From positions 1 to 59,197 of the IMG/VR virus record IMGVR_UViG_3300027985_000657: a stretch of DNA of 59,197 nt. The stretch is one strand, 5' to 3'. The first letter of the stretch is position 1. Each line of letters opens with the position of its first letter. A program made the translations under genes and the position numbers. Shown here piece after piece: positions 4,148 to 59,126 of the stretch. Source of the stretch: a virus. The notes beneath the pieces are model-generated. The model saw nothing but the letters and a program-made list of their open reading frames with translations. It was not told where the DNA came from and ran no database searches.

Positions 4148-4180
4148 CTCCTATAATAAAGGATGTAAAAACTACGAATT
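4148..4180 (-). promoter_or_regulatory. phage promoter-like element
   Basis: Minus strand reads TTCGTA, six bases, ACAT, CCTT, TATTAT, AGGAGG. It matches the recurrent consensus (TTCGCA-N6-ACAT-N4-hexamer-AGGA) with one change in the first box. It is placed directly ahead of the 63-aa gene. Confidence 0.65.
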
Positions 4181-4281: not shown

Positions 4282-4313
4282 TCCTATAAAGAGGTATGTA
4301 AAATTTGCGCAAA
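4282..4313 (-). promoter_or_regulatory. phage promoter-like element
   Basis: Minus strand: TGCGCA, six bases, ACAT, ACCT, CTTTAT, AGGAAA. The first box overlaps the palindrome TTTGCGCAAA. It drives the 25-aa peptide cassette. Confidence 0.65.
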
Positions 4314-12600: not shown

Positions 12601-13617
12601 TGCATGTTTGTCTTCCTCATATATCTGAAGACAGTGAAATGCAATAGCACCAAGTTCAAATTTTATTTGAGTCATTAAACGGTTGTATCTAGCAAGTGGT
12701 ATTTTATTACCAGATGGGTAAATATCAATCAATCTTCGCATCAAACCTGATTTGGCATTTGTGATTCTTACAGGACTATTTGTGCCCATTAGAAGAAATG
12801 ATATAAATCTCATTTCATATAAGGATTTATGCTTTTCATTCACAATCATCTTCTCGTGAGAAACCAAACTATTAATTTTAGTATTTTTTTCAATTCTTGA
12901 CAAGTCTCCATCATGGCTTATCGCCACTAATGGATTTGCTTTAAATTGTTCAAGCGCAAAAGCGTCCGATGCCGAACCAAGAGATTCAGCATCAAACATT
13001 TTAAAATATCCATTGAATAACTCTTGAATGATGTTCAGGATTGTAGATTTACCACTACCCGGCGGACCATAGAATACACCAAATTTTTGGATTGTTTTTG
13101 AATCACCACTAAGTATAGCACCAATAATCCACTCTATCTTATGACGTTCGTTTTCATTATAAAGGGTCGAAACCATCTCGTTCCAACCCTCCATAGTTCC
13201 TTCCTCGTCTAGAGAATAGGGTAATCTCTTTGTACCATAATCTTCCTTATTGGTTCCTTGATTTTGAAATATCAAGTTTTCATCAAGTTGTTTCCAATTA
13301 GATCGAAGCTGTTTTTGACAATATTTATGCCATACATCGATCATATTTGTTTCCGCATCCCACATATACATGATTCGTATATGATCCTCACCATATCTGT
13401 GTTTGTTCTTTTGCGCAAACTCGTCCAAATATCCATCTATGAGTTGTAATACATCATCCTCATTTGTGGACCATAGTCCAAGTTGTTCAATCCAGACGGC
13501 ATAAAAGTCACCGCCTCGAATCATTAGATCCTTACTCTTACTTGTAATTTTGAATTTCGGATATATTTCTACAACACCTTTACGTGTTCTTGTCGAAATC
13601 ATCAGAAAATCAAGCAT
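9694..13617 (-). CDS. SF3 helicase - primase - family B DNA polymerase fusion, 1307 aa
   Basis: One uninterrupted frame with three replication enzymes. Residues about 130-350: SF3/D5-like helicase with Walker A GPPGSGKST (184-192), acidic motif ISHDGD (233-238), sensor FLLMGTN (274-280) and arginine finger candidates R294/R295. Residues about 460-610: AEP primase with IDFDI (D513, D515), SGKGIHLHY (545-553) and IEVK (570-573). Residues about 700-1250: family B polymerase with Exo I DVE (D709, E711), Exo II NCRRYD (D758), Exo III YCDND (Y843, D847), motif A DIESMHP (D959), motif B K1025...NSVYG, motif C KTDS (D1081). The first Asp of the usual DTDS is Lys, as the less critical residue. AAGTAGG precedes ATG. 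Confidence 0.93.
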   Translation of the reverse strand: MLDFLMISTRTRKGVVEIYPKFKITSKSKDLMIRGGDFYAVWIEQLGLWSTNEDDVLQLIDGYLDEFAQKNKHRYGEDHIRIMYMWDAETNMIDVWHKYCQKQLRSNWKQLDENLIFQNQGTNKEDYGTKRLPYSLDEEGTMEGWNEMVSTLYNENERHKIEWIIGAILSGDSKTIQKFGVFYGPPGSGKSTILNIIQELFNGYFKMFDAESLGSASDAFALEQFKANPLVAISHDGDLSRIEKNTKINSLVSHEKMIVNEKHKSLYEMRFISFLLMGTNSPVRITNAKSGLMRRLIDIYPSGNKIPLARYNRLMTQIKFELGAIAFHCLQIYEEDKHAYDDYKPILMMSESNDFYNFVSDAFPIFKKDNSVTLKVAWEMYKMYCDSAKVPYPMSMRVFKNELRNYFKNYEERYRVNGEYVRSYYFDFRTDIFEQPTEVIKPKNRKKKDSFELIEFGDYPSKLDVDCADCSAQYGTRSGIPMSKWSECSTTLKELDTKRLHYLKVPLNHIVIDFDIQDEHGEKDFQKNLEEASKWPKTYAEVSKSGKGIHLHYIYDGDPTLLSRVYADNIEVKVFTGDSSLRRMLTKCNNENINKINSGLPMREVGRVINFESVKNEKAIRSLIKNNLNKEYHAGTKPSVDFIFKILEDAYNSGVKYDVSDLHGIILAFAASSTNQSDYCLKLVPKMKFKSDDASENVANDEKPIAFYDVEVFPNLLVVNWKLQGVGRPITRMINPTPHEIEMLMRYRLVGFNCRRYDNHIIYGALLGYSNLKLFELSSKIINQKQGFFAEAYNISYTDIYDYAVEKMSLKKWQIKLKIKHKELGLPWDQPVPEEKWLEVAEYCDNDVIATEALFNHTAGDFRARQMLVAMVKGYRGLNVCVNDTTNSLSTKLIFGTEKAPKLNYVDLAEEFPGYEFVKTWNPETNKYDKKNMYRGVDLKFGGYVYAKPGMYTDVGLLDIESMHPNSALAMNYFGEYTPIFRALVDSRVYIKNGRLDLAEELFNGVLKPFLDDPTMSDDVATALKIAINSVYGLTSATFSNPFKDPRNENNIVALRGALFMKTLQDALAEKGVEVMHIKTDSVKIPNITDEIVEFCHEFAHKYGYKFAHECNFDRICLVNDAVYVGKLDKHGIRNKGGKKANKWTATGTQFKVPYVFKTLFSHEKILFDDLCEVKEVKSSIYLNMNESDGVDDLKFIGRVGNFCPILPGHGGGLLVKPVNKKDGTVSYDAVTGSKGYRWLEAEMVEELDLRDSIDTSYYNVMVDNAIDTINKYGDFEWFVDHEQHESDEEIFISADNEVFDVEELNM

Positions 13618-14426: not shown

Positions 14427-15065
14427 TTAGTCTTCTTCGACTACTCCTATTATACCATTTATTTGATCATATGTTCTTTCTTCTAGAAGAACTTCATATA
14501 CAATGCCCTTTTTCTCATCACAAATGAACAAACAATCAGCATCATAAATTCCCATTTTATCCAGATTAGGATAACCGCCAACGATTCCAATATTATTCAA
14601 TTGATTATAATCGTCATCGGTAAGAACTTTATCAGCAGTGTAATAAAGGGTAACAGTCTCATATTCACTATCCTGAAATTCTTCAGGTGTCATAATATAT
14701 GGTTTAGTCGTGTCTACTTCCTCCTCTTTAATATGTACAAGTTTTTCTTCTCCAGGATCACCAGGAATTCTTTGATCTGATCCTGTTCTGTATTGTTCAC
14801 TGTAGTCAATCTTGCCATTGACTTTTTTAACTACAGGTTTCTTTGGTTCTTCTTTCTTTGGTTCATCAATTGGTTTATTGTCACCTTCTGGTACAACAGC
14901 CTCTTCTTTGACGCCAGAATAACGAGCAAGTAATACTTTTCGAACAGCAGCTACTTCTTCGTCCGCTAAATGCTCATAATATTTTTTGCTACGCATGTAG
15001 CCGATTTTATAACCGGCTACCGCTGCAAGAGATGCTCCAACTAAAAATATCAATACTTTTTTCAT
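14427..15065 (-). CDS. membrane-anchored conserved phage protein, 212 aa
   Basis: N-terminal hydrophobic anchor (about residues 4-23), a Pro/Glu/Lys-rich linker (about 55-80) and a C-terminal domain beginning YIMTPEEFQDSEYETVTLYYTAD, a segment that I recognise from many gut-phage proteins. The domain is acidic and mixed alpha/beta. The start overlaps the stop of the DUF6353-like gene upstream, so both are likely made together. Role unknown; topology suggests a cytoplasmic domain tethered to the membrane. Confidence 0.65.
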   Translation of the reverse strand: MKKVLIFLVGASLAAVAGYKIGYMRSKKYYEHLADEEVAAVRKVLLARYSGVKEEAVVPEGDNKPIDEPKKEEPKKPVVKKVNGKIDYSEQYRTGSDQRIPGDPGEEKLVHIKEEEVDTTKPYIMTPEEFQDSEYETVTLYYTADKVLTDDDYNQLNNIGIVGGYPNLDKMGIYDADCLFICDEKKGIVYEVLLEERTYDQINGIIGVVEED

Positions 15066-16039
15066 TAGATCACCTTTCTGAATTGTGTGAACATTTTATT
15101 ACCGTTCTTACCGGTAAGAATATCACCATCCACGTTGAATTCTAAGAATAATTCTTGTGCGTTACTTCTTAATGAATCCATAGCATATTGGTTTTTATTT
15201 CCAAATCTGTCAAATAGACCCATTGAAATATAAGAATCTCTTGTGTCATCACTAGGATCATAAATCCATCCTAATACTCTAGATGCTTGAAGCTTTTCAT
15301 CACCAAGTGAAGAAATATCAATACCTAATTCCTCATATACTTCATGTAGGAACATTGCCCCAGTATATACTAATTTCATGTTTAGGTATTTTTCTTTCAT
15401 TGCTAATTGATTTAATACCATATTAGTATCTCTGATCCATCCATGGGCAGTTCGATCATACATTACAGTAAAATCACTATCTGCTTTGACGTGTGGCCCT
15501 TTTACAAGTTGTTTTGTTAGATTACCATCTTTATCAACAACTTCTTTTTCTTCTTCACGGACATCTCTGAAAATATCTTTTTCTGCTAGATCTCCAATTT
15601 TTGCAGCAACTCTCTCACGATATGAGCGATAGCCGTTTTCTAATGTCGTATAAGCAGCTGCAAGTGCCATGTTACGACCCTTCATGATTTTGTGTGAACC
15701 AAGAATTCCGGCAACAGTTAAGCCAAATCCGATTGCTGTTGGTAAATATAATCTACCTAGTTCGAGTCCTGTTTTTGCATAGACTTTAGTTAACTCTTTT
15801 TTGCCTAAACTAACAGAGTACTCTTTGTTTGATAATTTATTATCATCATGCATATCTTGTTTGATTTCTTTGATTTTTTTATTAGCATTAGCAACTACAA
15901 GCTCTGCTTTTGGTGTTGCTTTAACGGCTAATACAATACTTCCTGCTGCAGCGATAATAGCTCCAGCTACAAGTAGTTCTGGTGATTTTTGTTTACCCCA
16001 AAAACCAACCTTACTAATAAATCCTGTAAATTTATTCAT
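15065..16039 (-). CDS. DUF6353-like membrane protein, copy 1, 324 aa
   Basis: Begins with a segment SPELLVAGAIIAAAGSIVLAV, then ATPKAELVV, a second hydrophobic region near 95-115 (LYLPTAIGFGLTVAG) and the motif KGRNMALAAAYTTLENGYRSYRERV. These are the marks of DUF6353 phage membrane proteins. The C-terminal half is soluble and contains LGWIYDPSDDTRDSYISMG. Two related genes follow upstream in the transcript at 17173-17946 and 17936-18889. Function unknown; three copies in one genome suggest a hetero-oligomeric membrane complex. Confidence 0.75.
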   Translation of the reverse strand: MNKFTGFISKVGFWGKQKSPELLVAGAIIAAAGSIVLAVKATPKAELVVANANKKIKEIKQDMHDDNKLSNKEYSVSLGKKELTKVYAKTGLELGRLYLPTAIGFGLTVAGILGSHKIMKGRNMALAAAYTTLENGYRSYRERVAAKIGDLAEKDIFRDVREEEKEVVDKDGNLTKQLVKGPHVKADSDFTVMYDRTAHGWIRDTNMVLNQLAMKEKYLNMKLVYTGAMFLHEVYEELGIDISSLGDEKLQASRVLGWIYDPSDDTRDSYISMGLFDRFGNKNQYAMDSLRSNAQELFLEFNVDGDILTGKNGNKMFTQFRKVI

Positions 16040-16056
16040 AATTTATTCTCCTTCGT

Positions 16057-16668
16057 TTAATCTAGTGGTGTAGCCTTAGGGAAATTAATAGAATATCCAT
16101 CTCTAACCCTGTCGATTGTTACATCAGATAGGTCTCTCCAACCATACTTATTTGCTGTATATGGAGCACTTTGCCCAATCATATCATAGAAATCAGCAAC
16201 AGATACCATCTTGTATCTATCGATTTGATCTCTAAGACTCATTAGTACTTCTTCTGCTTCTCCCCTATCAAACAATACAACTTCGTTAAAATTAAAGAAA
16301 TCTTTTCTTGTTGCTGCTTGCGGGATTCGATCGTAGTTTGTATCTCTATTTCTATCATAAAATGATGTATAACTAATATTTCTACTTCGACTATCCCTTG
16401 GGTCTCTGCTTCGACCGCCATAGATAAGAATATCAATACCGGTTTTGACCATATCAGTAATCAATCTTTGGATACCAGGTATAATGACACTAGTAAAAAC
16501 TTGACCTCTTACCGTTTTTGCATCTTCTGCAAAGAAGTTTCTTTTGAATTTTTTGAATTCTGATTCTTTTCTGACAGATACATTAGTAGTAATCGTGTCT
16601 TTCTTTATACGTTCTGGCTCAGGTTTCTTGCTTGAATCTGAGTTAGTTCCAAAGTCTTTTAGTCCCAT
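16057..16668 (-). CDS. conserved gut-phage protein with RGEAEEVL motif, 203 aa
   Basis: A basic N-terminal region is followed by VFTSVIIPGIQRLITDMVKT and ILIYGG, then a disordered Arg/Asp/Ser-rich stretch and the motif FDRGEAEEVLMSLRDQI, VSVADFYDMIG and NKYGWRDL. I recognise this motif order from many gut phages, always without known function. It sits between two DUF6353-like genes, so it may belong to the same membrane system. AGGAAAAATT precedes ATG. Confidence 0.65.
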   Translation of the reverse strand: MGLKDFGTNSDSSKKPEPERIKKDTITTNVSVRKESEFKKFKRNFFAEDAKTVRGQVFTSVIIPGIQRLITDMVKTGIDILIYGGRSRDPRDSRSRNISYTSFYDRNRDTNYDRIPQAATRKDFFNFNEVVLFDRGEAEEVLMSLRDQIDRYKMVSVADFYDMIGQSAPYTANKYGWRDLSDVTIDRVRDGYSINFPKATPLD

Positions 16669-16700
16669 AATTTTTCCTCGATTTTCATAATTTTTTAAAT

Positions 16701-16738
16701 GGAAAAGATAAAGGAGTATGATTCACTCATACCCCTTT
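16701..16738 (-). terminator. Rho-independent terminator
   Basis: Minus strand AAAGGGGTATGA-gtgaa-TCATACTCCTTT, a 12-bp stem with one G-U, followed by ATCTTTTCC. It lies after the 70-aa membrane protein gene and closes its one-gene cassette. Confidence 0.7.
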
Positions 16739-16761
16739 GTCATCCGGGCCCAGCTTGTTAA

Positions 16762-16974
16762 TTATTCTTGATCAGCTGGATTCACTTCAACGGGTTTTTC
16801 TTCCGCTTGTACTGCTGCCTTTTTAGCCGCTCTTTTCTTCCAGAAATATCTAACCGCTAATGCAAGTCCAACCACTACTGCAACTGGTGCAGCGATAGGT
16901 AGAGCTTTCTTAACGATCGGACATACTGATGAAGTAGCAACTTCAGTTGCAACATCGTTTGTCAAATTTTCCAT
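16762..16974 (-). CDS. small membrane protein, 70 aa
   Basis: The start MENLTND is chosen because GAAGGAGAAACGAAA lies before it. A hydrophobic segment (about residues 25-41, LPIAAPVAVVVGLALAV) is followed by an Ala/Lys/Arg-rich stretch and an acidic C-terminus. The gene is alone between a promoter-like element (17020-17047) and a terminator (16701-16738), so it is likely strongly and separately expressed. Family not recognised. Confidence 0.65.
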   Translation of the reverse strand: MENLTNDVATEVATSSVCPIVKKALPIAAPVAVVVGLALAVRYFWKKRAAKKAAVQAEEKPVEVNPADQE

Positions 16975-17019
16975 TTTCGTTTCTCCTTCTTTATTATTTA
17001 TATAACAAAGGTTTCCCTT

Positions 17020-17047
17020 CATTATACCAGATGTATTTTATGCGAAT
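17020..17047 (-). promoter_or_regulatory. phage promoter-like element
   Basis: Minus strand TTCGCA, TAAAAT, ACAT, CTGG, TATAAT, GAAGGG. This copy has a perfect TATAAT in the position of the variable hexamer. It lies 46 bases upstream of the 70-aa membrane protein start. Confidence 0.7.
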
Positions 17048-17172
17048 ATAATTCCGTGGAATGTACCCATATACATATGCGCATATTTAAAACCTCATCG
17101 GTTAGCGAACTAATACATATATGGGTTATCTATTTTTACATAGTCATCCATTCCATAAGACTAAAACCATAA
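17048..17172 (-). other. intergenic inverted repeats
   Basis: Between a DUF6353-like gene and the next promoter, CCCATATA pairs with TATATGGG across about 45 bases, an internal TTAG-TTCG-CTAA hairpin lies in between, and TGGAATG/CATTCCA encloses the whole. No T-run follows. It may be a 3' stabilising structure or a weak terminator. Confidence 0.4.
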
Positions 17173-17946
17173 CTAGTAGCTGTATACTTGTTTTGGTCTT
17201 GTGTTATATCTAATTGCACCACATGGTTCATTATCCGGTGTTAAAACAGTATCAATACTAATATCAATGATGCCTTGTTTACCGTCTTGTATTGACCAAC
17301 CCATGGTTTCACCAAGAACAGTTTCTTCTAACCCCAGAATATCAAACCAATCATTCAAAGTAGTTACACCAGACAAATCACCCATTGCTTGAGCATTCAA
17401 TTCGTTCGCTGCCTTTGATATGCGATTCCAATTAGTTTTGAAATATCTTCCAGACAATTCTTCATAAAATAAACTATCGCCGTCTCCAATAAGGGTAACA
17501 TTATTTATTCCATCTTTATATGTCTTTCTGACTTTTTCTTCTGAAATACTTTCCTCAATCTTCTCAAATTTCTTATCGCCGATTAAGGTTTTTGTTGTTT
17601 CTTTATACTCTTGAAGAGCAGTTTCTGACAATGTATATGCAGCTGCCAACATAATATTCCTTTTATTTGCTATGCGATTTCCAGCAATTATACAAGGGAT
17701 TGACATGCCGGTACTTACAACAACAGGTAAATAATCTTTCCAGGATAACTTAAATATTTCTTCAATAGTAAGTTTATCCTTTTTTAATTGTTGTTTTCTT
17801 TGTTCAACCTTCTTTGTTACTTTTGCAGTTGCTTTTATTCCCCATACAACTGAAAATAACATACCAGAGATACCCATTGTCATAAGTATCTCGGGTTCAT
17901 GTTGCGCTAAAAATGGTTTTATTGTTTTTAATATGTTACTCTTCAT
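17173..17946 (-). CDS. DUF6353-like membrane protein, copy 2, 257 aa
   Basis: Same order as copy 1: HEPEILMTMGISGMLFSVVWG, then IKATAKV, a second hydrophobic region (LPVVVSTGMSIPCIIAG), and NKRNIMLAAAYTLSETALQEYKE. The C-terminal part differs but keeps a domain with GDGDSLFYEELSGRYF. Start ATGAAGAGTAACATA overlaps the stop of copy 3, giving translational coupling; longer in-frame starts upstream overlap more. Function unknown. Confidence 0.75.
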   Translation of the reverse strand: MKSNILKTIKPFLAQHEPEILMTMGISGMLFSVVWGIKATAKVTKKVEQRKQQLKKDKLTIEEIFKLSWKDYLPVVVSTGMSIPCIIAGNRIANKRNIMLAAAYTLSETALQEYKETTKTLIGDKKFEKIEESISEEKVRKTYKDGINNVTLIGDGDSLFYEELSGRYFKTNWNRISKAANELNAQAMGDLSGVTTLNDWFDILGLEETVLGETMGWSIQDGKQGIIDISIDTVLTPDNEPCGAIRYNTRPKQVYSY

Positions 17947-18889
17947 CCTCGTTGACCTCTCCATCATTGTCATTTTTGATTTTTATTAGTTTACCATCAG
18001 GACCTTTAGTATATCCGAACATTTCAAATGTGGCATACTCATGATTTGGATTATCCAGGAATGGGTCAAAATCTAAATCAAGACGTTCTTCATAGTCTTC
18101 GACACCAAGCATAATTGGATCTTCCAACCAAGAAATGACTTTATATGGTATTTGAGGTTCGACATCATCAATTGTAATCTCATCTACTAATTGCATGTGA
18201 ATCCAGATTATATCTTTTGTTTCAGATAAATAATCCATTGTCCATCCCCATGAAGAAAGGTATTCTTTCGTAATTGAAGTATCAATAATATTAGCTTTTG
18301 CTAATTCTACAAATTGTAGCAACGTTACTCCTTCAAAAACTTCATCTGTTGGATATCCATTCAAAGTTCCATTCATCATTTCATTGATTGTAGCATATGC
18401 ATACATAACATCTTCGGGTAGGGCTTGAAAATATCCAATTAGTTCATCATAGTAAAGTTCTCTACGATCCCCTTCATCTCTAGTTATGTGCTGTTTTACT
18501 GCTTTTTGTTCCTTTTGTGATAAACTTTTCAGAATATCATTGTGTGCATCAACACCAAGTACAGATTTTACTTGATGTTTGTATTTTTTCCACCCTTGGT
18601 CGGCAATTACAGCCATTGACATAATAGAAGCCTGCGCTTTATTACTCATAATTGTTGAGCCAACTATTGATGAAATTGTTGCTATTCCAGCTATTCCAGT
18701 TGGAATATAAATCTTGTACAAAGCCATTATCTTTTCTTTTAAAGGTAGTGATTCAAAATTATGAATTTTCTTTCGTACAATTGATTCTTTCATTGCTGCT
18801 TTTCTTGCTAATATTGCCGTCCCTACAGTTCCTATTGCTCCAACCACGGAAAAGCCAACTGCAAGTACTTGTTTTGTTTTTAGATTCAC
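17936..18889 (-). CDS. DUF6353-like membrane protein, divergent copy 3, 317 aa
   Basis: GTG start behind AAGGAGAACTTAGAAA. Two hydrophobic segments near 8-27 and 60-82 and a helical stretch AQASIMSMAVIADQGWKKYK take the places of the corresponding parts of copies 1 and 2, but sequence is more divergent. The C-terminal half contains RRELYYDELIGYF and ends in a very acidic tail. It is the first gene of the DUF6353 block in transcription order. Membership in the family is by layout and context. Confidence 0.6.
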   Translation of the reverse strand: MNLKTKQVLAVGFSVVGAIGTVGTAILARKAAMKESIVRKKIHNFESLPLKEKIMALYKIYIPTGIAGIATISSIVGSTIMSNKAQASIMSMAVIADQGWKKYKHQVKSVLGVDAHNDILKSLSQKEQKAVKQHITRDEGDRRELYYDELIGYFQALPEDVMYAYATINEMMNGTLNGYPTDEVFEGVTLLQFVELAKANIIDTSITKEYLSSWGWTMDYLSETKDIIWIHMQLVDEITIDDVEPQIPYKVISWLEDPIMLGVEDYEERLDLDFDPFLDNPNHEYATFEMFGYTKGPDGKLIKIKNDNDGEVNEDEE

Positions 18890-19194: not shown

Positions 19195-19223
19195 TCATTA
19201 TAGTGAATGTTAATTTTGCGAAT
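19195..19223 (-). promoter_or_regulatory. phage promoter-like element
   Basis: Minus strand TTCGCA, AAATTA, ACAT, TCAC, TATAAT, GAAG. It overlaps the last codons of the 124-aa gene and points at the 66-aa membrane protein gene. Confidence 0.7.
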
Positions 19224-21011: not shown

Positions 21012-21040
21012 TCCTATAATAAGAAATGTAAAATATGCTA
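21012..21040 (-). promoter_or_regulatory. phage promoter-like element
   Basis: Minus strand ATAGCA, TATTTT, ACAT, TTCT, TATTAT, AGGAAC. The first box is degenerate (GCA kept). It lies about 30 bases upstream of the coiled-coil membrane protein gene. Confidence 0.6.
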
Positions 21041-22923: not shown

Positions 22924-22952
22924 CCTATAATAAGAGATGAAATTTATGCGTT
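22924..22952 (-). promoter_or_regulatory. phage promoter-like element
   Basis: Minus strand AACGCA, TAAATT, TCAT, CTCT, TATTAT, AGGAGG. Slightly degenerate in the first box and in ACAT. AGGAGG doubles as the ribosome site of the 73-aa gene, so the leader would be very short. Confidence 0.55.
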
Positions 22953-25321: not shown

Positions 25322-25350
25322 TCTATAAAGTGATATGTAAATTATGCGAA
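25322..25350 (-). promoter_or_regulatory. phage promoter-like element
   Basis: Minus strand TTCGCA, TAATTT, ACAT, ATCA, CTTTAT, AGAAAA. Nearly identical over about 30 bases to the elements at 27205-27233 and 27306-27335. It drives the 72-aa membrane protein cassette. Confidence 0.75.
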
Positions 25351-27204: not shown

Positions 27205-27233
27205 TCTATAAAGTGATATGTATTTTTTGCGTA
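27205..27233 (-). promoter_or_regulatory. phage promoter-like element
   Basis: Minus strand TACGCA, AAAAAT, ACAT, ATCA, CTTTAT, AGAAAA. Followed by the 85-aa membrane protein gene. Confidence 0.7.
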
Positions 27234-27307: not shown

Positions 27308-27346
27308 CTATAAAGTGATATGTAAATTATGCGAATTTGCGCAAAT
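27306..27346 (-). promoter_or_regulatory. phage promoter-like element with TTTGCGCAAA dyad
   Basis: Minus strand TTCGCA, TAATTT, ACAT, ATCA, CTTTAT, AGGAAA, with the dyad ATTTGCGCAAAT directly upstream. It is the strongest match to the consensus and drives the small RNA candidate. Confidence 0.75.
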
Positions 27347-48240: not shown

Positions 48241-48726
48241 CTAGTTACCTCCCTTTCCAGAATCTTGCATGTCAACCTTGTTAGTTTTATATGCTACTCT
48301 ACCATTTTCCCATACACCATTTTTAAGCTGATTAATGTCATATCCTTGATCAGCTAATGCCATATGGACACCGATTTGGCCCCTCTTTGCAACCCATTCT
48401 ACTATTTTACCTGACGGTGACCTAATATCCTTGGTTTTTGTTCGAAGTACTTCAGCCAAATGTTTATTGTACGTATTAATAAGAGTTCGTTTACCCATTT
48501 GTTGACCTGATTTTTGTAATTCTTTAATGTATTCCTTCATTTCAGGCTTGGATTCTTTTAGTGCTTTTTCATACACCTTATCGGATTTTCGTTTAACCCA
48601 TTTTTCATCCAATTTTTGATATCGTCTAACTCCAGCAGGCGTTAGAGATCCATCATCATTCTGGTAACGTCTTATTCCCCATCGTTGACCTTTAATACCA
48701 TGATGGACTAGATATGTTTTTATCAT
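48241..48726 (-). CDS. HHGIKGQRWG-tagged protein 3, 161 aa
   Basis: Starts MIKTYLVHHGIKGQRWG, with tag continuing IRRYQNDDGSLTPAGVRRY. The rest is basic and helical (KSDKVYEKALKESKPEMKEYI) and ends in a Lys/Gly-rich segment. The same N-terminal tag begins two other proteins nearby. The tag occurs widely in phages and prophages of Gram-positive gut bacteria, usually on head-module proteins; function unknown. AAGGAGGCG lies upstream; ATG at 48726 is three bases past the TerL stop. Confidence 0.7.
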   Translation of the reverse strand: MIKTYLVHHGIKGQRWGIRRYQNDDGSLTPAGVRRYQKLDEKWVKRKSDKVYEKALKESKPEMKEYIKELQKSGQQMGKRTLINTYNKHLAEVLRTKTKDIRSPSGKIVEWVAKRGQIGVHMALADQGYDINQLKNGVWENGRVAYKTNKVDMQDSGKGGN

Positions 48727-48727
48727 T

Positions 48728-50473
48728 TCATTCGAACGCCTCCTTATTTTGTTTAAAGGCAATAAAAGCATCCATTAAGGCTGCTACATTGTCAATTTTT
48801 GCTTCATGACGTTTCTTGTAAAGTTTTCTATTACCATTTGTATCTTCAAGAGTAATAGAATTACCCATTGCGAATGTCATTAATTCTTCATCATGCAAAA
48901 GTTTTCTTTCTTCTGCAAGTTTTTTCAATTCCCCTAGAGGAACTGATTCTGTTTTAGAACCTTGAATAACTTTTACTATTCCGAATGGACCATTTTCAGT
49001 TTGCCATCTTTCAACAAACTCTTTTGCATTATAAGGGTCAAATCCAAGGGCTCTCACATCATAATTTGCTTCGGCGATGTGATTGTCAATGTCCTCATAT
49101 ACTAACATCATGTCTAGAATAGTTCCATCCATGACCATTAATGATCCTTCTTTCATAAACTCCTCATACTTAAACCTCATTGCTGTAGGCAATCGTTGAA
49201 GAGTAAATTCACTAATATAACTTCGTGTTTTAACCCCAAATTCACCATTAGATAATGGGAAAAGGAATGTAAATGCACAAAAGTCATCTCCTTGAGACAA
49301 GTCAACACCAAGTGCACATGGTAATCCCCAAAAAGTTTTCTTTGAATGAGGTAATGTTTCTTCATACGTAAAATAGTATGTAAACCCCTCCATTGGTATA
49401 CCAAATCTCTTTGCAAGTATGTCATTTCGGACTGCTGGGGCTTTTTCAGCTCTTTCCACATCTAGTAAATATGTTTCATATGAAACTGTTTTACCTAAAT
49501 TAGGATTTGCTTTGATCCACATATCTGGATCGGCAACCTCATCAATATTATCTAAACGATAGTACCAGATTGATACATGCGGATTCACATATTCACCTTT
49601 TAAGATGTCTAATAATTCCATTTTGATTGTATCACCTGATCCATTACGAACAGTACCTTCTGAAGAGACTGCAACAATTAAATAATCATCGACTTTCGAA
49701 GCTCCTTGTTCAATTGCACCAACTACATCTTCTCTAACATCCCCGGACAACCACTCATCAATAGTTGCTATCTTACATCTTAAACCTTGAAGTTTATCGA
49801 TTCTCATCGGTCTGATTTCAAGTAAAGATCCAGTTAAGAAATTCTCAATTCCCTTTTTTGTAGATGCTAATTTTACTCTATTTGCTTTTGAACCAGTTGT
49901 GTTTTGTAAAGATCCTTCTGTTAAGAACTTAAACAACGGCCCTTTTGAACGAATAATTGAAGTTTTTATTGGTGACATTACTTCATCTGCTTGTTTCATG
50001 GTTGGGGCAGTAGTAATCTGATAAGTTGTTGTAGGATCAATATTAAGAAAATAGCTTTGTATTTCAGATGCATACATTGATTTTGCAGCACCACGAGAAA
50101 CTATTAAATATTGTTTATTTACGAGTCTTTTTTTAATCATTTTCTTTTCATAATGACCATGTTTATCGTTTATACCTTTAACATAGATACTTCGTTCTAC
50201 GAAATAGTACCAACCAAATATTTGTTCTGCCCATAGTTTAAATGAATCCAACATTTTTAAATCAGATCCATCTGTTAGTGTTGTTTCTTTTTCACAATAC
50301 TCAATAAACCCGTTTATTGCCAGGTCATCATAGTAAATCCCCGGATTTGCAATAAGCTCGTCAATCCGATTCATTTCTAGAGAGATCTCCCTACATACAG
50401 GCATATCGCCTCTAAGCACGGCATCTCTGAATTCACCATAATACTTAGGCGTTGCTGTATTAGATAGTCCCAT
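48728..50473 (-). CDS. terL: terminase large subunit, 581 aa
   Basis: ATPase with Walker A VSRGAAKS (about 125-132), Walker B region CKIATIDEW with the DE pair, and a nuclease domain starting CALGVDLSQGDDFCAF; further acidic residues follow in VMDGTILDM and RALGFDPYNAKEF. This is the packaging motor that pumps DNA into the head and cuts it. Order small terminase, HNH, large terminase, portal is normal, but here three extra genes separate small and large subunits. Confidence 0.93.
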   Translation of the reverse strand: MGLSNTATPKYYGEFRDAVLRGDMPVCREISLEMNRIDELIANPGIYYDDLAINGFIEYCEKETTLTDGSDLKMLDSFKLWAEQIFGWYYFVERSIYVKGINDKHGHYEKKMIKKRLVNKQYLIVSRGAAKSMYASEIQSYFLNIDPTTTYQITTAPTMKQADEVMSPIKTSIIRSKGPLFKFLTEGSLQNTTGSKANRVKLASTKKGIENFLTGSLLEIRPMRIDKLQGLRCKIATIDEWLSGDVREDVVGAIEQGASKVDDYLIVAVSSEGTVRNGSGDTIKMELLDILKGEYVNPHVSIWYYRLDNIDEVADPDMWIKANPNLGKTVSYETYLLDVERAEKAPAVRNDILAKRFGIPMEGFTYYFTYEETLPHSKKTFWGLPCALGVDLSQGDDFCAFTFLFPLSNGEFGVKTRSYISEFTLQRLPTAMRFKYEEFMKEGSLMVMDGTILDMMLVYEDIDNHIAEANYDVRALGFDPYNAKEFVERWQTENGPFGIVKVIQGSKTESVPLGELKKLAEERKLLHDEELMTFAMGNSITLEDTNGNRKLYKKRHEAKIDNVAALMDAFIAFKQNKEAFE

Positions 50474-50484
50474 ATTATTTCACA

Positions 50485-50955
50485 CTACTTACCGGATCTA
50501 TTTTGTTTTGCGATTACTTGTTTTCTTGTTTGTGGCTTACCAGTAAATGTTTCTGGAGTAGGTCCCATACCAGTTGAATTAAATGTTCTATTACTATTTG
50601 CTATAACGAAACTTTTTGCTCCTGAAGCAACTATAACAGAGCCAATAAGTGTTGATAAAATTGCATCATTTAACAATTTTTTACCACTTTTTGTTGATAG
50701 ATTTGTTTTATTAATTTTGGCTTTTACAATAGCAGTAACACCTTTTGCCACAACGGCTGTTCCGGCAATAGTTTTTAATGTACCTCTATTAATTCTACTT
50801 CTTCTATAACTTTCTTTCATATTTACAGTTCCGTCTTCATTTACGTCATAGCGTTTTTTACCAAGAGGAGTAAGACTTCCATCTTCGTTTTGGAAACGTC
50901 TAATTCCCCAACGTTGGCCTTTAATACCATGATGGACCAAATATGTTTTATGCAT
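50485..50955 (-). CDS. HHGIKGQRWG-tagged protein 2, 156 aa
   Basis: ATG at 50955 follows AAAGGAGGGAAATAAT. N-terminus MHKTYLVHHGIKGQRWGIRR, then FQNEDGSLTPLGKKRYDV. The remainder has two Ala/Val-rich, partly hydrophobic helical segments (GTLKTIAGTAVVAKGVTAIV, AILSTLIGSVIVASGAKSFV), possibly membrane-active, and ends in Lys/Arg. May be injected with DNA; function inferred only from composition. Confidence 0.7.
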   Translation of the reverse strand: MHKTYLVHHGIKGQRWGIRRFQNEDGSLTPLGKKRYDVNEDGTVNMKESYRRSRINRGTLKTIAGTAVVAKGVTAIVKAKINKTNLSTKSGKKLLNDAILSTLIGSVIVASGAKSFVIANSNRTFNSTGMGPTPETFTGKPQTRKQVIAKQNRSGK

Positions 50956-50956
50956 A

Positions 50957-51481
50957 TTATTTCCCTCCTTTATTGCCAAGTTTTATTTTGTTAATTTCAC
51001 CTACGGTGATAGCAATACTTGCACCAATTGCAACAGCGGCGCCAACTGTTTGTAAAATTTCACGGGTCCAATCAGCTCCGGATCGAATTCTTTTTGTATC
51101 ACCAGTTAATTCGCCGTAACTACGTTCCATGCTTAAGCGGTTGATTCTTTGTCTAATTTCAGCATCAGATAATTTGCTATAATCGGCGTTGTTAACAATT
51201 TTTGATTTGTTTTTTCCGACATTACCAATCGCAGTATCTAATGTATTTATAGATTTTGATGTTCCTTCAAGAATAGCTTTTGCAGCATCCGCATCTGCTT
51301 TACGATAATCGGCTTCAAGTTGTTTTTTACCTGTCTGATTGACTATTGAATTCCCATGTTCATTTGAATTCCCATAGCGTTTTTTTCCAAGATCTGTTAG
51401 TGTGCCATCAGGGTTTTGGTAACGTCTGACACCCCATCGTTGACCTTTAATCCCGCTATGAAATAAGTATAATTTAATCAT
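50957..51481 (-). CDS. HHGIKGQRWG-tagged protein 1, 174 aa
   Basis: ATG at 51481 follows GAGGAGGAATAATGCA. N-terminus MIKLYLFHSGIKGQRWGVRR, with HSG replacing HHG, then YQNPDGTLTDLGKKRY. The middle is helical and the C-terminus carries one hydrophobic segment (ILQTVGAAVAIGASIAITVG). Like tagged protein 2 it looks partly membrane-active. Its start lies in the last codons of the connector gene. Confidence 0.7.
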   Translation of the reverse strand: MIKLYLFHSGIKGQRWGVRRYQNPDGTLTDLGKKRYGNSNEHGNSIVNQTGKKQLEADYRKADADAAKAILEGTSKSINTLDTAIGNVGKNKSKIVNNADYSKLSDAEIRQRINRLSMERSYGELTGDTKRIRSGADWTREILQTVGAAVAIGASIAITVGEINKIKLGNKGGK

Positions 51482-51485
51482 TGCA

Positions 51486-51884
51486 TTATTCCTCCTCATC
51501 CACAACGAGCGTTGCTAAATATGCTTGATATGCGGCAATGTCTTCTTCTGTAAATAATCTATATTCCATCTCTTCTATAGATCTCTTCATAGCATCTAAA
51601 ACATTACCATTGCTCGGCGGATCAAAAATCATTTTGACTTTAAGAGCAACATATGATTTAATTTGTTGAGATTTCATGGGATCAGTAAGTGTGTAACTAT
51701 CCCATGTTTCATCATAACCAGTTATTACAAATCCGGCAAGTGGACCTATGCCCATTTGCGTAAGATTGCTAAAAACAGTATTGATATGAATCAATATGTC
51801 TTGGTCAAATGAGTCATATTCTTTTGACAATCCTAATATTTTTTTCACACTTTCTAGGATTGATGCAATTACCAGATCAGCCAT
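51486..51884 (-). CDS. head-tail connector protein (gp6/gp15-like), 132 aa
   Basis: Helical protein with ESVKKILGLSKEYDSFDQDILIHINTVFSNLTQMGIGP, the pattern of small connector proteins that bind the portal. Here it is unusually encoded before the large terminase. GGGTAATAGATC precedes ATG; terminal VVDEEE overlaps the next gene's leader. Confidence 0.7.
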   Translation of the reverse strand: MADLVIASILESVKKILGLSKEYDSFDQDILIHINTVFSNLTQMGIGPLAGFVITGYDETWDSYTLTDPMKSQQIKSYVALKVKMIFDPPSNGNVLDAMKRSIEEMEYRLFTEEDIAAYQAYLATLVVDEEE

Positions 51885-53477: not shown

Positions 53478-53762
53478 TTAATTTTTATTTTTAGTTTCTT
53501 TAATAACTTTTTTAAATTCTATGATTTCACCTTGTTTATTTATGGCGCCCGTCTTAATTAGTTGGTCTATGCCATGGTTAACAGACTCATAGATTTCTTC
53601 ATCAGTCATTGAATCACTAAGAAATGTTATACTTGCTAATCTACCACATGTATTATAGCCAGCATTGGTATCAAATAATAGCCATTGTTCCCAGTGTGTG
53701 AAAGGATTATATGGATTGTCTGCTGTTGTTACACGTAGTTCTTTATTGTTATATGCGGACAT
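53478..53762 (-). CDS. conserved small phage protein, 94 aa
   Basis: Contains TTADNPYNPFTHWEQWLLFD and GYNTCGRLASITFLSDSMTDEE, a pattern I recall from many gut phages, without known function. GAAAGGAGAGTAATT precedes ATG. It follows the RNA-polymerase-like gene by two bases and ends just before the packaging-site region. Confidence 0.65.
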   Translation of the reverse strand: MSAYNNKELRVTTADNPYNPFTHWEQWLLFDTNAGYNTCGRLASITFLSDSMTDEEIYESVNHGIDQLIKTGAINKQGEIIEFKKVIKETKNKN

Positions 53763-53764
53763 AA

Positions 53765-56740
53765 TTACTCTCCTTTCAATGTGTTAGTAACTGTTGTTAC
53801 AGACACACCAATAGCTCTAGCTATCTCTGATGTAGTATAGCCGGATCTAGCCATGTTTTCTATTCTTCTTATTTTGGCAGGACTTAAAACAACACTAGTT
53901 CTAGGCATAGCAAACTTTCTTAGAATCTCTATGTTAGCATTAGCCATTATTTGTTCTAACTTATGGGTACTTATAGCACCAGCTTGTATTGCATCCCATT
54001 CTCTTTGTGTTATTTCTATTTCATGTCTAGCGGCACCTACCTTAGCCCTAGCCTTACTTAATTCTTGTTGTCTAAGCTTTCTTTCCTCTTCTGCAGTCAT
54101 TCTAGGATTGTCTTGTTTTTTAATTCTTATGTTAGATGCAGCAATTGTTTGGGCCTGTCTTTCTCTAGGAGCATTGAGTAGAGCTTGATTAATTTTGTAA
54201 TCTAAAGAAATGACCTCCTCATTGTATGCATTTCTAGCCGATGCAGAATAAGGGGTATTAATAATTGTAAGCGTTTCTTTTCTTGCTTCGTTGGCTAATG
54301 TTTTTAACGCATTAGCATATGTGGCATAGGCTTCCTCCTGTGGTGTACCAGATGATAGTGTTCTAGCATCATTTGTTTCAGCCATTTTAGTGGAGTATGT
54401 TGTTGCTTTAGTTGTTTTAATATTTTCATTAGTTACTTTTACATAATCACCGGTCTCATCTTTATAGTATAGATTACCATCTTTTACAATAACAGAAACT
54501 TTTTTATTGTCACCAGAAGATGTCTTATATGTAGTGGTCATGTATTCTCTGTTTGTATACGTATACAGTTTTTCACCAGTTTCTGGATCAAAGTATCTAG
54601 TTTTCTTATCTTTTTCACCATAATATTTACCAGTTTGTTCATCATAGTAAATCTTATTTTCTGGATCAATCAATGTAATTTGATTTCCTGTATCTTTTGC
54701 AAAGTAAGCTCCAAGTTTTCGCTCACCAACAACTTGTGTAGATTTTGATTTTGAAATTAATGTAGCTGCACCCATGTGCGATCTTCCAGTTTCTGGATCA
54801 ATCTGTGTTTGGTACTTTTTATGAAGTGCTTTTACACCATTGTCAACTTCAGACTGTTTATAATCCAATTTATGTTTGTTTGCATCGATGATAACCATTG
54901 AATGTTTAACAGCTCTTGCTAATTCTTCATTTGTTGCACCTTTCAATGTCATGTCTGTAATAAGGTTAGAAATAGTACCCATTTCATTTTGGGTTCTTGT
55001 TTCTGGGAGAATTGTAAATTCTTTTCCTCCTCTATAATACCTTTCTTCGCCATTAATAGTTTTTATTTCGTCTGGACCATACGAAAACTTTGTATCAAAG
55101 CCTTCCAAAGCCTTTAAAGGTGGTGATGAAGAAATCTTAATCTTGTCGGTAATAGGTATAACCATTACTGTGTCACCATCAAAATCTGCACCGGATAGTC
55201 TTGCTGCAACTTTTGCATTTATTCCTATTGCATCTGTTGGATTTTTTGTCATGATAGAAATCGCTTCTTTATTCCTATTATTTACATTTAAAACTGGAAT
55301 TTCAAAAGTTCCACCATGTGGATATCTAACCAATGCTATTTGAGATCCATCATCCATATGTGGTGCAAATGCTTCATTATCTTTTAATGATGGAACAGCT
55401 AAAATTACTTTGTATTTTGCTCCCGGTAATCCTGCAGCTTTTAAATTTACAGCTGAAGCATCACAATCATCAGCAAATGACAATAATAATGATTTTTTAA
55501 CTGTTGGATTAGTTAGAGAATTTATTTCGTCAAATTCATCAACTTTTTCTTGCATAGAAATTTCCAATTGTTTATTAATTAATTTCTGAGGCTGTTTAGA
55601 TAAAAATTGTGCGGATATTTCTTTAGACCAATCTCCCCAATCACCTTCATCTGAACGTTTATTTATTACAGATAGATGCTCATTTCCATCAGAATCATAC
55701 CAAACTGATTGTCCGCCTGTTTCTTTTATTGTTGAACCAAATGGATTATCTGGATCGTTTTTGATTGGTTTCATAGCATCTAATTTTGATTCGGTTTTGT
55801 TTTTATTTGTATTGAAAACAACATCTATTCCATCTGGCATATTATCAGAATATACTGCCATTCCTTTTAAATAGTGTGTTCCATCAACTAGAATACGAAC
55901 TTGAGAATAATTAGATGTTCCTAGTGAAATATCATCAACACCTCTTCTAAGTTCAATAATTCCATCTTTTTCACCGCCACCTTCATTGCCATATCTAACT
56001 TCAATTCTATCAGAACTCAAACTTTCTGGATATTGAAATGACGGTTTAAATGTTTTTCCATCATCATAAGATGTTAAGTCTTCTACAGAATGAATTTGAT
56101 CATAATTATAAATTGCTTTATGTGGTGTTCCAGGCGAACAAAGAACTTTTAATGTAGTTAACATTCCTTTATTAGTGGCTTGAGGAACTCTGTTACCATG
56201 AACAACATAACCTTCCATTTTTAAGATTTCAATTGCTTGATCCATCTTTTCTTTGGAAACTTTTAATTGTCTAGGTACGCCAGCACCAATATCAATCATA
56301 CCTTTTTCATCAACTAATTGTCTAAGATTGTCTGCCAAATCAGTTGCTAGATTCATTCTTGCTTTTGCATCTTTATTTAATAATGATCTTACACTTGATT
56401 CACCTTTCAAACCAAGCATTTCTGCAATTTTTACTCTACTGTATCCTTCTTCACTTAACGTGTTAGCTTTAGAATATAAGTCGTTTTTTCTTTCTCTTTT
56501 TGCTAGTGATACTAATGCTCTTAAACGAGTACTTGAAATATCACCCATGGCTTTTGCTATTTCTGCTTCTGTTAGACCTTGCTTTTTTAGTTCGTCAACT
56601 CTACTTAAAAAGTCTCCACTATGCTGATATGGTGATTCGCCACTTCCCCATGGATATCTACCAGAATGTCTAGGAGTACCATAGTGAAGTAGATATTCAT
56701 CATCAGTCATTGAATTGTCTAGTAATTCTTTATCACTCAT
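53765..56740 (-). CDS. RNA-polymerase-like protein (DFDGD active site) with three HTH segments, 991 aa
   Basis: Residues 515-527 (LSGADFDGDTVMV, with D519, D521, D523) match the metal-binding DxDGD loop of double-psi beta-barrel RNA polymerases, as in bacterial beta-prime and the single-chain YonO and crAss-phage enzymes. The segment before it (VRYPHGGTFEIPVLNVNN, 471-488) fits the preceding strands. HTH-like segments lie at about 54-79, 96-121 and 953-987, the last (GYTTSEIARAIGVSVTTV) very clear. Near the N-terminus YLLHYGTPRHSGRYPWGSG (16-34) resembles the HHGIKGQRWG tag. Likely transcribes phage genes. Activity unproven. Confidence 0.75.
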   Translation of the reverse strand: MSDKELLDNSMTDDEYLLHYGTPRHSGRYPWGSGESPYQHSGDFLSRVDELKKQGLTEAEIAKAMGDISSTRLRALVSLAKRERKNDLYSKANTLSEEGYSRVKIAEMLGLKGESSVRSLLNKDAKARMNLATDLADNLRQLVDEKGMIDIGAGVPRQLKVSKEKMDQAIEILKMEGYVVHGNRVPQATNKGMLTTLKVLCSPGTPHKAIYNYDQIHSVEDLTSYDDGKTFKPSFQYPESLSSDRIEVRYGNEGGGEKDGIIELRRGVDDISLGTSNYSQVRILVDGTHYLKGMAVYSDNMPDGIDVVFNTNKNKTESKLDAMKPIKNDPDNPFGSTIKETGGQSVWYDSDGNEHLSVINKRSDEGDWGDWSKEISAQFLSKQPQKLINKQLEISMQEKVDEFDEINSLTNPTVKKSLLLSFADDCDASAVNLKAAGLPGAKYKVILAVPSLKDNEAFAPHMDDGSQIALVRYPHGGTFEIPVLNVNNRNKEAISIMTKNPTDAIGINAKVAARLSGADFDGDTVMVIPITDKIKISSSPPLKALEGFDTKFSYGPDEIKTINGEERYYRGGKEFTILPETRTQNEMGTISNLITDMTLKGATNEELARAVKHSMVIIDANKHKLDYKQSEVDNGVKALHKKYQTQIDPETGRSHMGAATLISKSKSTQVVGERKLGAYFAKDTGNQITLIDPENKIYYDEQTGKYYGEKDKKTRYFDPETGEKLYTYTNREYMTTTYKTSSGDNKKVSVIVKDGNLYYKDETGDYVKVTNENIKTTKATTYSTKMAETNDARTLSSGTPQEEAYATYANALKTLANEARKETLTIINTPYSASARNAYNEEVISLDYKINQALLNAPRERQAQTIAASNIRIKKQDNPRMTAEEERKLRQQELSKARAKVGAARHEIEITQREWDAIQAGAISTHKLEQIMANANIEILRKFAMPRTSVVLSPAKIRRIENMARSGYTTSEIARAIGVSVTTVTNTLKGE

Positions 56741-57378
56741 CTCTTATACTCCCTTTCAAAATATTTTTTAATAGTTTTATCTTTTGATGTAATCAAATGC
56801 ATTATTCCTTGAATTTCTGTAGGTTCTGCAACAAGAGTTTGAATTTCTCCTTCTTGATAAATACGTAATTCCGTTGTAAAATCAAACGGGTCTTTTTTAT
56901 ACTCTAAACAAAATAACGCAGCATATATCAATAGTTGTTCCATTTTTGTTGGTGTTATACCACTTTTTAAATCATGAATTCTTAATATTTTATTAAATTC
57001 ATCAAAAACTATTGTGTCTGCCGTTCCGAAAGCATTCATTGAATAATATAAAATTACTTCTGGATACATTCTAAAACCAATAGCATCATTTACAAAAGGT
57101 AAAAGATTCAATAAAATTTGCTCAGAATCATATGCACCTTTTGGAATACCTAGTTTGGCTAAGAAAATATCAATTACTTTTTTGTCTGATCTAGCTAATT
57201 TAATTCTATGTGAAATTAAATCTCTAGCTAATTCATGTAATGCTGTTCCTATGGTTTGGGCGAATTGACCATAATATCTTTTTTCAAGTGTCTCATCATC
57301 CCAATTTAACCAGTGATACTTACTTGCTCCTAAAAAGGCATGTAGCCCTTCAAGTTTTGAGTGATCATTAAATATCAT
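56737..57378 (-). CDS. PD-(D/E)XK exonuclease (RecB-like), 213 aa
   Basis: Motifs GTALHELA (H48), FGTADTIVFDE (D121), IHDLKSG (D136, K138) and QLLIYAALF (Q148, Y152) make a RecB/Cas4-type nuclease core. Probably degrades or processes DNA ends in recombination. It overlaps both neighbours and lies between the second nuclease and the RNA-polymerase-like gene. AAAGGAGAACTTAGGAAA precedes ATG. Confidence 0.8.
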   Translation of the reverse strand: MIFNDHSKLEGLHAFLGASKYHWLNWDDETLEKRYYGQFAQTIGTALHELARDLISHRIKLARSDKKVIDIFLAKLGIPKGAYDSEQILLNLLPFVNDAIGFRMYPEVILYYSMNAFGTADTIVFDEFNKILRIHDLKSGITPTKMEQLLIYAALFCLEYKKDPFDFTTELRIYQEGEIQTLVAEPTEIQGIMHLITSKDKTIKKYFEREYKR

Positions 57379-57701
57379 TTTCCTAAGTTCTCCTTTTTCT
57401 TGAAATTATTAACATGATTATGCAATCTGTCAAAAACCTCATTTTCATTTTCAGGATTTATAAAACTTGAGAAACTCATATCATTATGCTTATTTACATA
57501 ATATTCTTGATTGGGTTGTTTGTTAGCTTTTTTATTTTTTTTAACTTCAAGTGTTCCCCATGTTAATGGACATAATACAACTAAATCTGGACTACCTTGA
57601 ATTTCAGTAGGATCTAGTTTATGAACTTCACATTGAGGAAACTCTTTTTTCAATCGATCTTTTACAATTGATTGAAACCCATTTTTACCAGTCTCTCTCA
57701 T
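57375..57701 (-). CDS. PD-(D/E)XK nuclease (VRR-NUC-like), 108 aa
   Basis: Contains QGSPDLVVL (D39), GTLEVKK (E52, K54) and QPNQEYYV, the compact VRR-NUC/Holliday-resolvase-like nuclease motif. Start MRETGKN at 57701 is chosen because AAGGAAGGACTTATATTT precedes it; longer frames run into the promoter region. Probably acts on branched DNA, paired with the neighbouring RecB-like nuclease. Confidence 0.75.
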   Translation of the reverse strand: MRETGKNGFQSIVKDRLKKEFPQCEVHKLDPTEIQGSPDLVVLCPLTWGTLEVKKNKKANKQPNQEYYVNKHNDMSFSSFINPENENEVFDRLHNHVNNFKKKENLGK

Positions 57702-57782
57702 AAATATAAGTCCTTCCTTCTTTATTAGGTAAAATGCAAAACAGAATGTAATATGCTTTTTTCGCAATTTACCCTCTTCTCT

Positions 57783-57810
57783 CCATAAAAGTCTATGTAT
57801 TATCTGCGAA
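57783..57810 (-). promoter_or_regulatory. phage promoter-like element
   Basis: Minus strand TTCGCA, GATAAT, ACAT, AGAC, TTTTAT, GGAGAG. Same spacing as the other elements, but with TTTTAT-GG in place of TAT-AGG. It lies upstream of the nuclease/RNA-polymerase/head operon. The pair at 59099-59126 shares this variant. Confidence 0.7.
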
Positions 57811-59098: not shown

Positions 59099-59126
59099 CC
59101 ATAAAAGTCAATGTTTAATCTGCGAA
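59099..59126 (-). promoter_or_regulatory. phage promoter-like element, rightmost
   Basis: Minus strand TTCGCA, GATTAA, ACAT, TGAC, TTTTAT, GGAGAG. A degenerate second copy (GCATAGTATTTACATTCTA) lies 30 bases further along at 59066-59092. This is the start point for the whole leftward transcription. Confidence 0.7.

Follow-up and report, generated by a model that had tools for sequence, protein, structure and literature searches.

We find that a 991-aa viral protein is predicted to fold as a single-chain RNA polymerase with two double-psi barrels, that its active-site residues are invariant among its homologues, and that its gene is associated with a recurrent DNA element that we regard as its candidate promoter. 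The gene lies on the minus strand of a 59,197-base virus record, the whole of which was analysed and is called the window below; the reading frame begins with ATG (Table 1). We propose that the protein would act as a DNA-dependent RNA polymerase on the phage's own genes, chiefly those of the early and replication region and those of the operon holding its own gene. Initiation would take place at a phage-specific element, CGCR-N6-ACA-N5-YWTWATRR, probably read by the polymerase's own HTH and winged-helix domains, with RNA synthesis most likely starting from purines right after TWAT. The virion would probably carry the enzyme, an N-terminal tag directing it there, so that early transcription could start on entry; later, the promoter in front of its operon would yield more polymerase. 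We regard this explanation, taken as a whole, as likely.

Table 1. Features of the polymerase gene, its surroundings and the promoter element in the window
Feature	Position	Strand	Basis
Single-chain two-barrel RNA polymerase gene (predicted; PHROG 4291), 991 aa	53765..56740	-	ORF, profile, model, fold search
N-terminal tag (putative), residues 19-39 (HYGTPRHSGRYPWGSGESPYQ), near-invariant, disordered in model	56624..56686	-	alignment, model
N-terminal HTH, HTH, winged-helix-like module, residues 44-201	56138..56611	-	Pfam (Terminase_5), modelled secondary structure
First barrel (beta-like, DPBB-B), residues 261-313, with Q280, K292, K313	55802..55960	-	conservation, QDE-1 equivalents, fold
Second barrel (beta'-like, DPBB-A), residues 442-530	55151..55417	-	conservation, model, fold
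DFDGD metal-binding motif, residues 519-523	55172..55186	-	sequence, conservation
Helical segment after second barrel, residues 580-620, candidate bridge helix	54881..55003	-	Pfam scan, model
C-terminal HTH, residues 954-988	53777..53881	-	HTH_23, model
Small gene (PHROG 4303), directly downstream of polymerase	53478..53762	-	adjacent in 14/14 family genomes
Cas4-like exonuclease (PHROG 3953), conserved upstream neighbour	56737..57378	-	gene comparison
VRR-Nuc-like endonuclease, conserved upstream neighbour	57375..57767	-	gene comparison
Head-module protein, related N-terminal tag HHGIKGQRWG	48241..48771	-	sequence
Head-module protein, related N-terminal tag HHGIKGQRWG	50485..50979	-	sequence
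Head-module protein, related N-terminal tag HSGIKGQRWG	50957..51505	-	sequence
Promoter element upstream of metallophosphoesterase gene	59099..59124	-	matrix search
Promoter element upstream of nuclease-exonuclease-polymerase operon	57783..57808	-	matrix search
Promoter element	27308..27333	-	matrix search
Promoter element	27206..27231	-	matrix search
Promoter element, copy cited in the first-pass annotation	25323..25348	-	matrix search
Promoter element, 1 mismatch, Shine-Dalgarno sequence begins directly after	22925..22950	-	matrix search
Promoter element, 1 mismatch	21014..21039	-	matrix search
Promoter element	19195..19220	-	matrix search
Promoter element	17019..17044	-	matrix search
Promoter element	4284..4309	-	matrix search
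Promoter element, 1 mismatch, Shine-Dalgarno sequence begins directly after	4151..4176	-	matrix search

An alignment of 127 homologous sequences served both for conservation and as input for structure prediction. The AlphaFold model of the whole protein had a mean pLDDT of 87.1 and a pTM of 0.80, and the core modelled alone (residues 236-660) had a pLDDT of 92.7. In fold searches the whole model matched QDE-1 and plant RDR2 (E 8e-8 to 1e-3). The core matched QDE-1 (E 5e-10, TM 0.41-0.51) and P74-26 gp62 (E 2e-7, TM 0.49) in alignments of about 430-530 columns, global TM-scores of the fold matches being about 0.5 or lower and identity 10-15%. It also matched RDR2 and P23-45 gp96 (E 8.5e-5) and, more weakly, the bacterial beta' barrels. 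The first-pass annotation, made from the sequence of the window, had named QDE-1 and crAss gp66 as structures for comparison; the likeness to QDE-1 is clear, whereas that to gp66 is weak (E 0.016).

That annotation had also recognized a metal-binding DFDGD loop, which we place at residues 519-523, within the block S-G-A-D-[FW]-D-G-D. Residues S516, G517, A518, D519, D521, G522 and D523 are invariant in the 127 homologues, and because of this invariance the motif is not a chance match. Three residues of the first barrel, Q280, K292 and K313, are likewise invariant in the 127 sequences. The first barrel of QDE-1 has three invariant residues, Q736, K743 and K767 (PMC1750930). The residues here occur in the same order and are then followed by the invariant SGADxDGD, an equivalence set by motif order and fold rather than by residue superposition. 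The structure prediction, the fold search and the invariant catalytic residues of both barrels together support a reading of two double-psi barrels in one chain, as the earlier annotation had expected; the fold matches behind it are to QDE-1, RDR2, P74-26 gp62 and P23-45 gp96. Judged from the model, the protein almost certainly has an RNA polymerase fold.

In the model, helices 580-599 and 604-620 come after the second barrel. Residues 664-784 (54389-54751) form a beta-rich insertion, much longer than in most relatives; it follows the candidate bridge helix and is possibly in the trigger-loop region. The Pfam RdRP model (PF05183) gave 14.9 bits against a cut-off of 23.8, and 16.5 bits (E 6e-5) in a second scan. 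Within the window the polymerase gene was its sole match, below the cut-off, and among 14 control genomes it matched in B. subtilis only, presumably YonO. Whether the query was the single protein or the profile of 127 rows, sequence searches of the PDB returned no two-barrel polymerase at a significant score; the matches were mainly HTH proteins, designed proteins and chance matches. Genes for other polymerase subunits had been described as absent, and our search of the 59,197-base window for the RNAP beta catalytic domain and for sigma region 2 found neither.

Three HTH-like segments had been reported at the two termini. Two of them are borne out by Pfam matches above the cut-off: the C-terminal one (HTH_23, 963-988, E 3e-7) and the second N-terminal one (Terminase_5/gpP-like, 91-126, E 8e-6). 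The first N-terminal segment, 44-75, has weak support from sequence (HTH_3, E 0.31) and is modelled as helices, within a helical unit that spans 44-97. Residues 131-201 are modelled as helices followed by a beta hairpin and fit a winged-helix-like unit, which the earlier annotation had overlooked. One clade (alignment rows L005 and L007) carries a further HTH-like repeat close to the N-terminus.

The recurrent motif noted earlier at 25322-25350 proved to be one of 11 copies of the element in the window at no more than 1 mismatch from the consensus. In a matrix search these 11 copies, all intergenic, were on the coding strand, against 0 on the opposite strand and 0-2 per shuffled sequence; a twelfth match falls within a gene and is probably due to chance. 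All 11 copies precede non-structural genes. They lie past the tail and lysis genes, within the non-structural region, except for one that precedes the VRR-Nuc, Cas4 and polymerase operon, and the structural genes at 28-53 kb of the window contain no copy except the chance-like intragenic match. The description of the motif as unlike a sigma promoter also holds: the aligned sites have no -35 box (TTGACA about 17 nt upstream of the -10, the sigma-A criterion) and show a conserved CGC and ACA instead. A sigma-70 promoter was considered as an explanation of the element and rejected, as a consensus scan gave 65 matches versus 72 in shuffled sequences, and hence no excess.

The spacing of the element from its genes bears on where transcripts would begin. 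The start codon follows TATWAT at a median of 31 nt and the Shine-Dalgarno sequence at a median of 18 nt. Some Shine-Dalgarno sequences begin 0-3 nt after TATWAT, and in Lactococcus lactis phage 1706 the Shine-Dalgarno region typically has its start only a few bases from TATAGT. A start of the kind made by host sigma factors, 6-8 nt downstream, would cost such leaders their ribosome site. For this reason we suggest that the RNA most likely starts at a purine right after TWAT.

The protein also has an N-terminal sequence of the pattern HYGxxxxSGRYPWGSGxxPxQ that is near-invariant yet modelled as disordered, as expected for a linear tag. Related tags, HHGI[KL]GQ[KR]WG, open head-module proteins in the window and in many relatives. 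The head-module tags continue into YQN-DGSLT, and in relatives many proteins near terminase and portal have similar tags. In one relative (L176, 15321-16370) a different protein, directly before terminase, has the polymerase-type tag HYG...SGRYPWGSG together with the head-module continuation YRNKDGSL and so links the two tag types. We found no description of this portable tag in a literature search that missed most subscription journals. Fifteen structural proteins of phage 1706 were reportedly identified by mass spectrometry. In the GenBank entry for this phage (EU081845), the portal, protease-capsid, tail and 'structural' entries total 15; they include the polymerase homologue orf75, whose label 'structural protein' is a database annotation, and orf7, which is tagged and was likewise deposited as 'structural protein'.

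On the strength of these labels and the shared tag, we lean towards packaging of the polymerase in virions. The tag could, of course, serve some purpose other than packaging. A real two-barrel polymerase might also use this promoter without being packaged: host RNA polymerase would make it first, and it would then serve middle or late genes. There are precedents for such an arrangement, as YonO serves late genes (PMC5467207) and P23-45 gp64 is not a virion protein (PMC10770324), and an element stands in front of the operon that runs on past the polymerase in the direction of the packaging genes. However, the deposition of 1706 orf75 as a structural protein, the tag shared in kind with head-module proteins and the position of most elements in the early region speak against an unpackaged enzyme, and we consider it a rather doubtful alternative.

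Comparisons across genomes support a link between the polymerase and the element. Across 14 family genomes, the coding strand has 120 exact copies and the opposite strand 0. Conservation extends beyond the fixed pattern, with T before CGC, A/T at positions 7-10, CC at 17-18 and RA after the end. By matrix search there were 8-27 copies per genome outside Lactococcus, 0 on the opposite strand and at most 0.2 in shuffles. The element is found in phages of Rhodococcus, Arthrobacter, Gordonia, Streptomyces, Microbacterium, Curtobacterium and Faecalibacterium. Seven phages of the host genera used by the family that lack the gene (ReqiDocB7, FP_Mushu, FP_Lugh, GTE2, phiC31, MementoMori and Hendrix) had 0 exact copies in 387 kb, while ReqiPepy6, which has the gene, had 15. 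When the DNA element alone was the query over 2.9 million viral contigs, 60 stretches were returned. The polymerase was encoded on 21 of the 22 element-bearing viral contigs of at least 45 kb that were tested, an association among phages that also share other core genes; element-bearing contigs without it were mostly fragments. The strict TATAAT pattern matched a single viral contig, a 19-kb fragment lacking the polymerase gene. Eight bacterial genomes with such prophages had 45 of their 50 exact matches in tight clusters.

Two phages of one host species are informative here. L. lactis phage 1706 has the variant TTTTACA-N4-CTATAGTAG (10 coding, 0 opposite), and L. lactis phage P092 has ACA-N5-YTATWATRR (12 coding, 1 opposite). 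That 1706 might be without the promoter was considered, and discarded once matrix matches revealed this shifted variant. Because these two phages of a single host species differ in their variants, the element follows the phage and not the host. A reader encoded by the phage is favoured by promoters that differ within one host species yet stay the same across phyla.

Conceivably, the host RNA polymerase instead uses the element as its promoter, by itself or with the help of a phage activator, and the two-barrel protein does other work such as late transcription or priming. The TATAAT or TATTAT within the element does resemble a host -10 box, and other core genes, including 16057-16668 and PHROG 4303, are inherited together with the polymerase. 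Against this, there is no -35 box, and CGC and ACA start 18 and 8 bases upstream of TATWAT. Phage 1706 uses TATAGTAG, a poor -10 box, whereas P092, on the same host species, has TATAAT. A start 6-8 nt downstream would truncate several of the Shine-Dalgarno sequences that lie 0-3 nt after TATWAT. Finally, the same element spans phages of Firmicutes and Actinobacteria and is absent from other phages of those genera. The core gene set narrows this alternative further. In the window and in all 14 genomes, the core non-structural genes are the helicase, annealing protein, primase-polymerase, PHROG 2152 membrane proteins, a gene of unknown function at 16057-16668, the polymerase, PHROG 4303, Cas4 exonuclease and VRR-Nuc nuclease; none of them except the polymerase has an obvious promoter-reading domain, which limits the room for a separate activator of the host RNA polymerase. 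We therefore rate a host promoter as unlikely and infer that the reader of the element is this enzyme rather than host RNA polymerase aided by a phage factor. From the sequence evidence we are fairly confident that the protein is enzymatically active and uses this element.

An RNA-dependent RNA polymerase, as the PHROG and RefSeq names have it and as the closest solved folds, QDE-1 and RDR2, might suggest, is very improbable: the carriers are double-stranded DNA phages, the Pfam RdRP match is below the cut-off, a DNA template is indicated by the HTH modules and by the DNA element linked to the gene, and QDE-1 itself was solved with DNA templates.

Two other features of the core genes were conserved in 14/14 genomes. 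Three PHROG 2152 membrane-protein paralogues and the 16057-16668 gene are kept beside the primase-polymerase (15065-18889), and a 1307-aa protein (9694-13617, PHROG 4210) matches, within a single chain, families of both DNA primase and DNA polymerase. The PHROG 4303 protein (about 90 aa) could be an accessory subunit or regulator.

The polymerase family itself is not new. The protein matches the PHROG 4291 profile over its full length (1174 bits, residues 10-989), and PHROG 4291 already bears the database name 'RNA-dependent RNA polymerase'. Relatives are present in 251 of 50,697 phage records, from phages of Arthrobacter, Gordonia, Streptomyces, Lactococcus, Curtobacterium, Microbacterium, Rhodococcus and Faecalibacterium, and on many bacterial genome contigs, largely of Lachnospiraceae and other Firmicutes. 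Phage relatives are usually annotated as HTH DNA-binding proteins; labels within the 1706 orf75 family include 'RNA-dependent RNA polymerase', 'HTH DNA-binding protein' and 'structural protein'. One full-length relative (L256, record G037 C1 29366-32071) has a single in-frame TGA read through, which may reflect a pseudogene, a sequencing error or a recoded stop.

Promoter finding by single-chain two-barrel RNA polymerases is an open question, as the study of YonO did not define its promoter (PMC5467207). In this family there is a predicted pair of enzyme and promoter, with natural variants of the promoter on one host species (1706 versus P092) and about 250 sequenced phages, many of them isolated on laboratory strains, in which the pair could be tested. 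If our reading is true, hundreds of 'HTH DNA-binding' genes would be re-annotated, early transcription in these phages is predicted to be rifampicin-resistant, and the family may provide a new promoter-specific polymerase akin to the cellular and RNA interference enzymes. We give even chances to a broader proposal: that these are a widespread and so far unrecognized class of virion-delivered one-protein transcription systems in which a polymerase with HTH/winged-helix readers, a portable head-packaging tag and one composite promoter act together, the promoter staying recognizable across phages of Firmicutes and Actinobacteria.

Phage two-barrel single-chain polymerases are already known (YonO, P23-45 gp64 and gp96, crAss gp66), and two-barrel polymerases have been grouped in 23 families (PMC10770324). 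The closest system is the PHROG 4291/1706 orf75 family, which is alike over the full-length sequence and, in most members, in its VRR-Nuc, Cas4 exonuclease and PHROG 4303 neighbours; the literature searched contained no described activity or promoter for it. Our search, in which most subscription journals were missing, likewise found no earlier report of the promoter element, and the cognate promoter is apparently unreported until now. YonO, from B. subtilis prophage SPbeta, is also a single-chain two-barrel protein of a Gram-positive phage without other subunits; it transcribes the SPbeta late genes (PMC5467207), whereas the element defined here by comparison is mostly in the early region. 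P23-45 gp96 and gp64/P74-26 gp62 share the two-barrel single-chain core and use phage-specific promoters, gp96 being a virion enzyme and gp64/P74-26 gp62 non-virion (PMC10770324). Unlike gp96, which is fused to the tape measure protein, the polymerase described here has a gene to itself and brings HTH modules and an N-terminal tag of its own. The RNA interference polymerases QDE-1 and plant RDR2 are the best fold matches, and the Q/K/K and DxDGD set is that of QDE-1, but identity is about 10-15%, the protein is below the Pfam RdRP cut-off and the flanking domains differ. The gp66 polymerase of crAss-like phage phi14:2 (6VR4) is a single-chain two-barrel enzyme that is packaged in virions; it differs in its 2166 residues and its weak fold match. 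Overall, we regard the protein as a genuine polymerase, probably active, that belongs to a known kind and has a domain architecture of its own.
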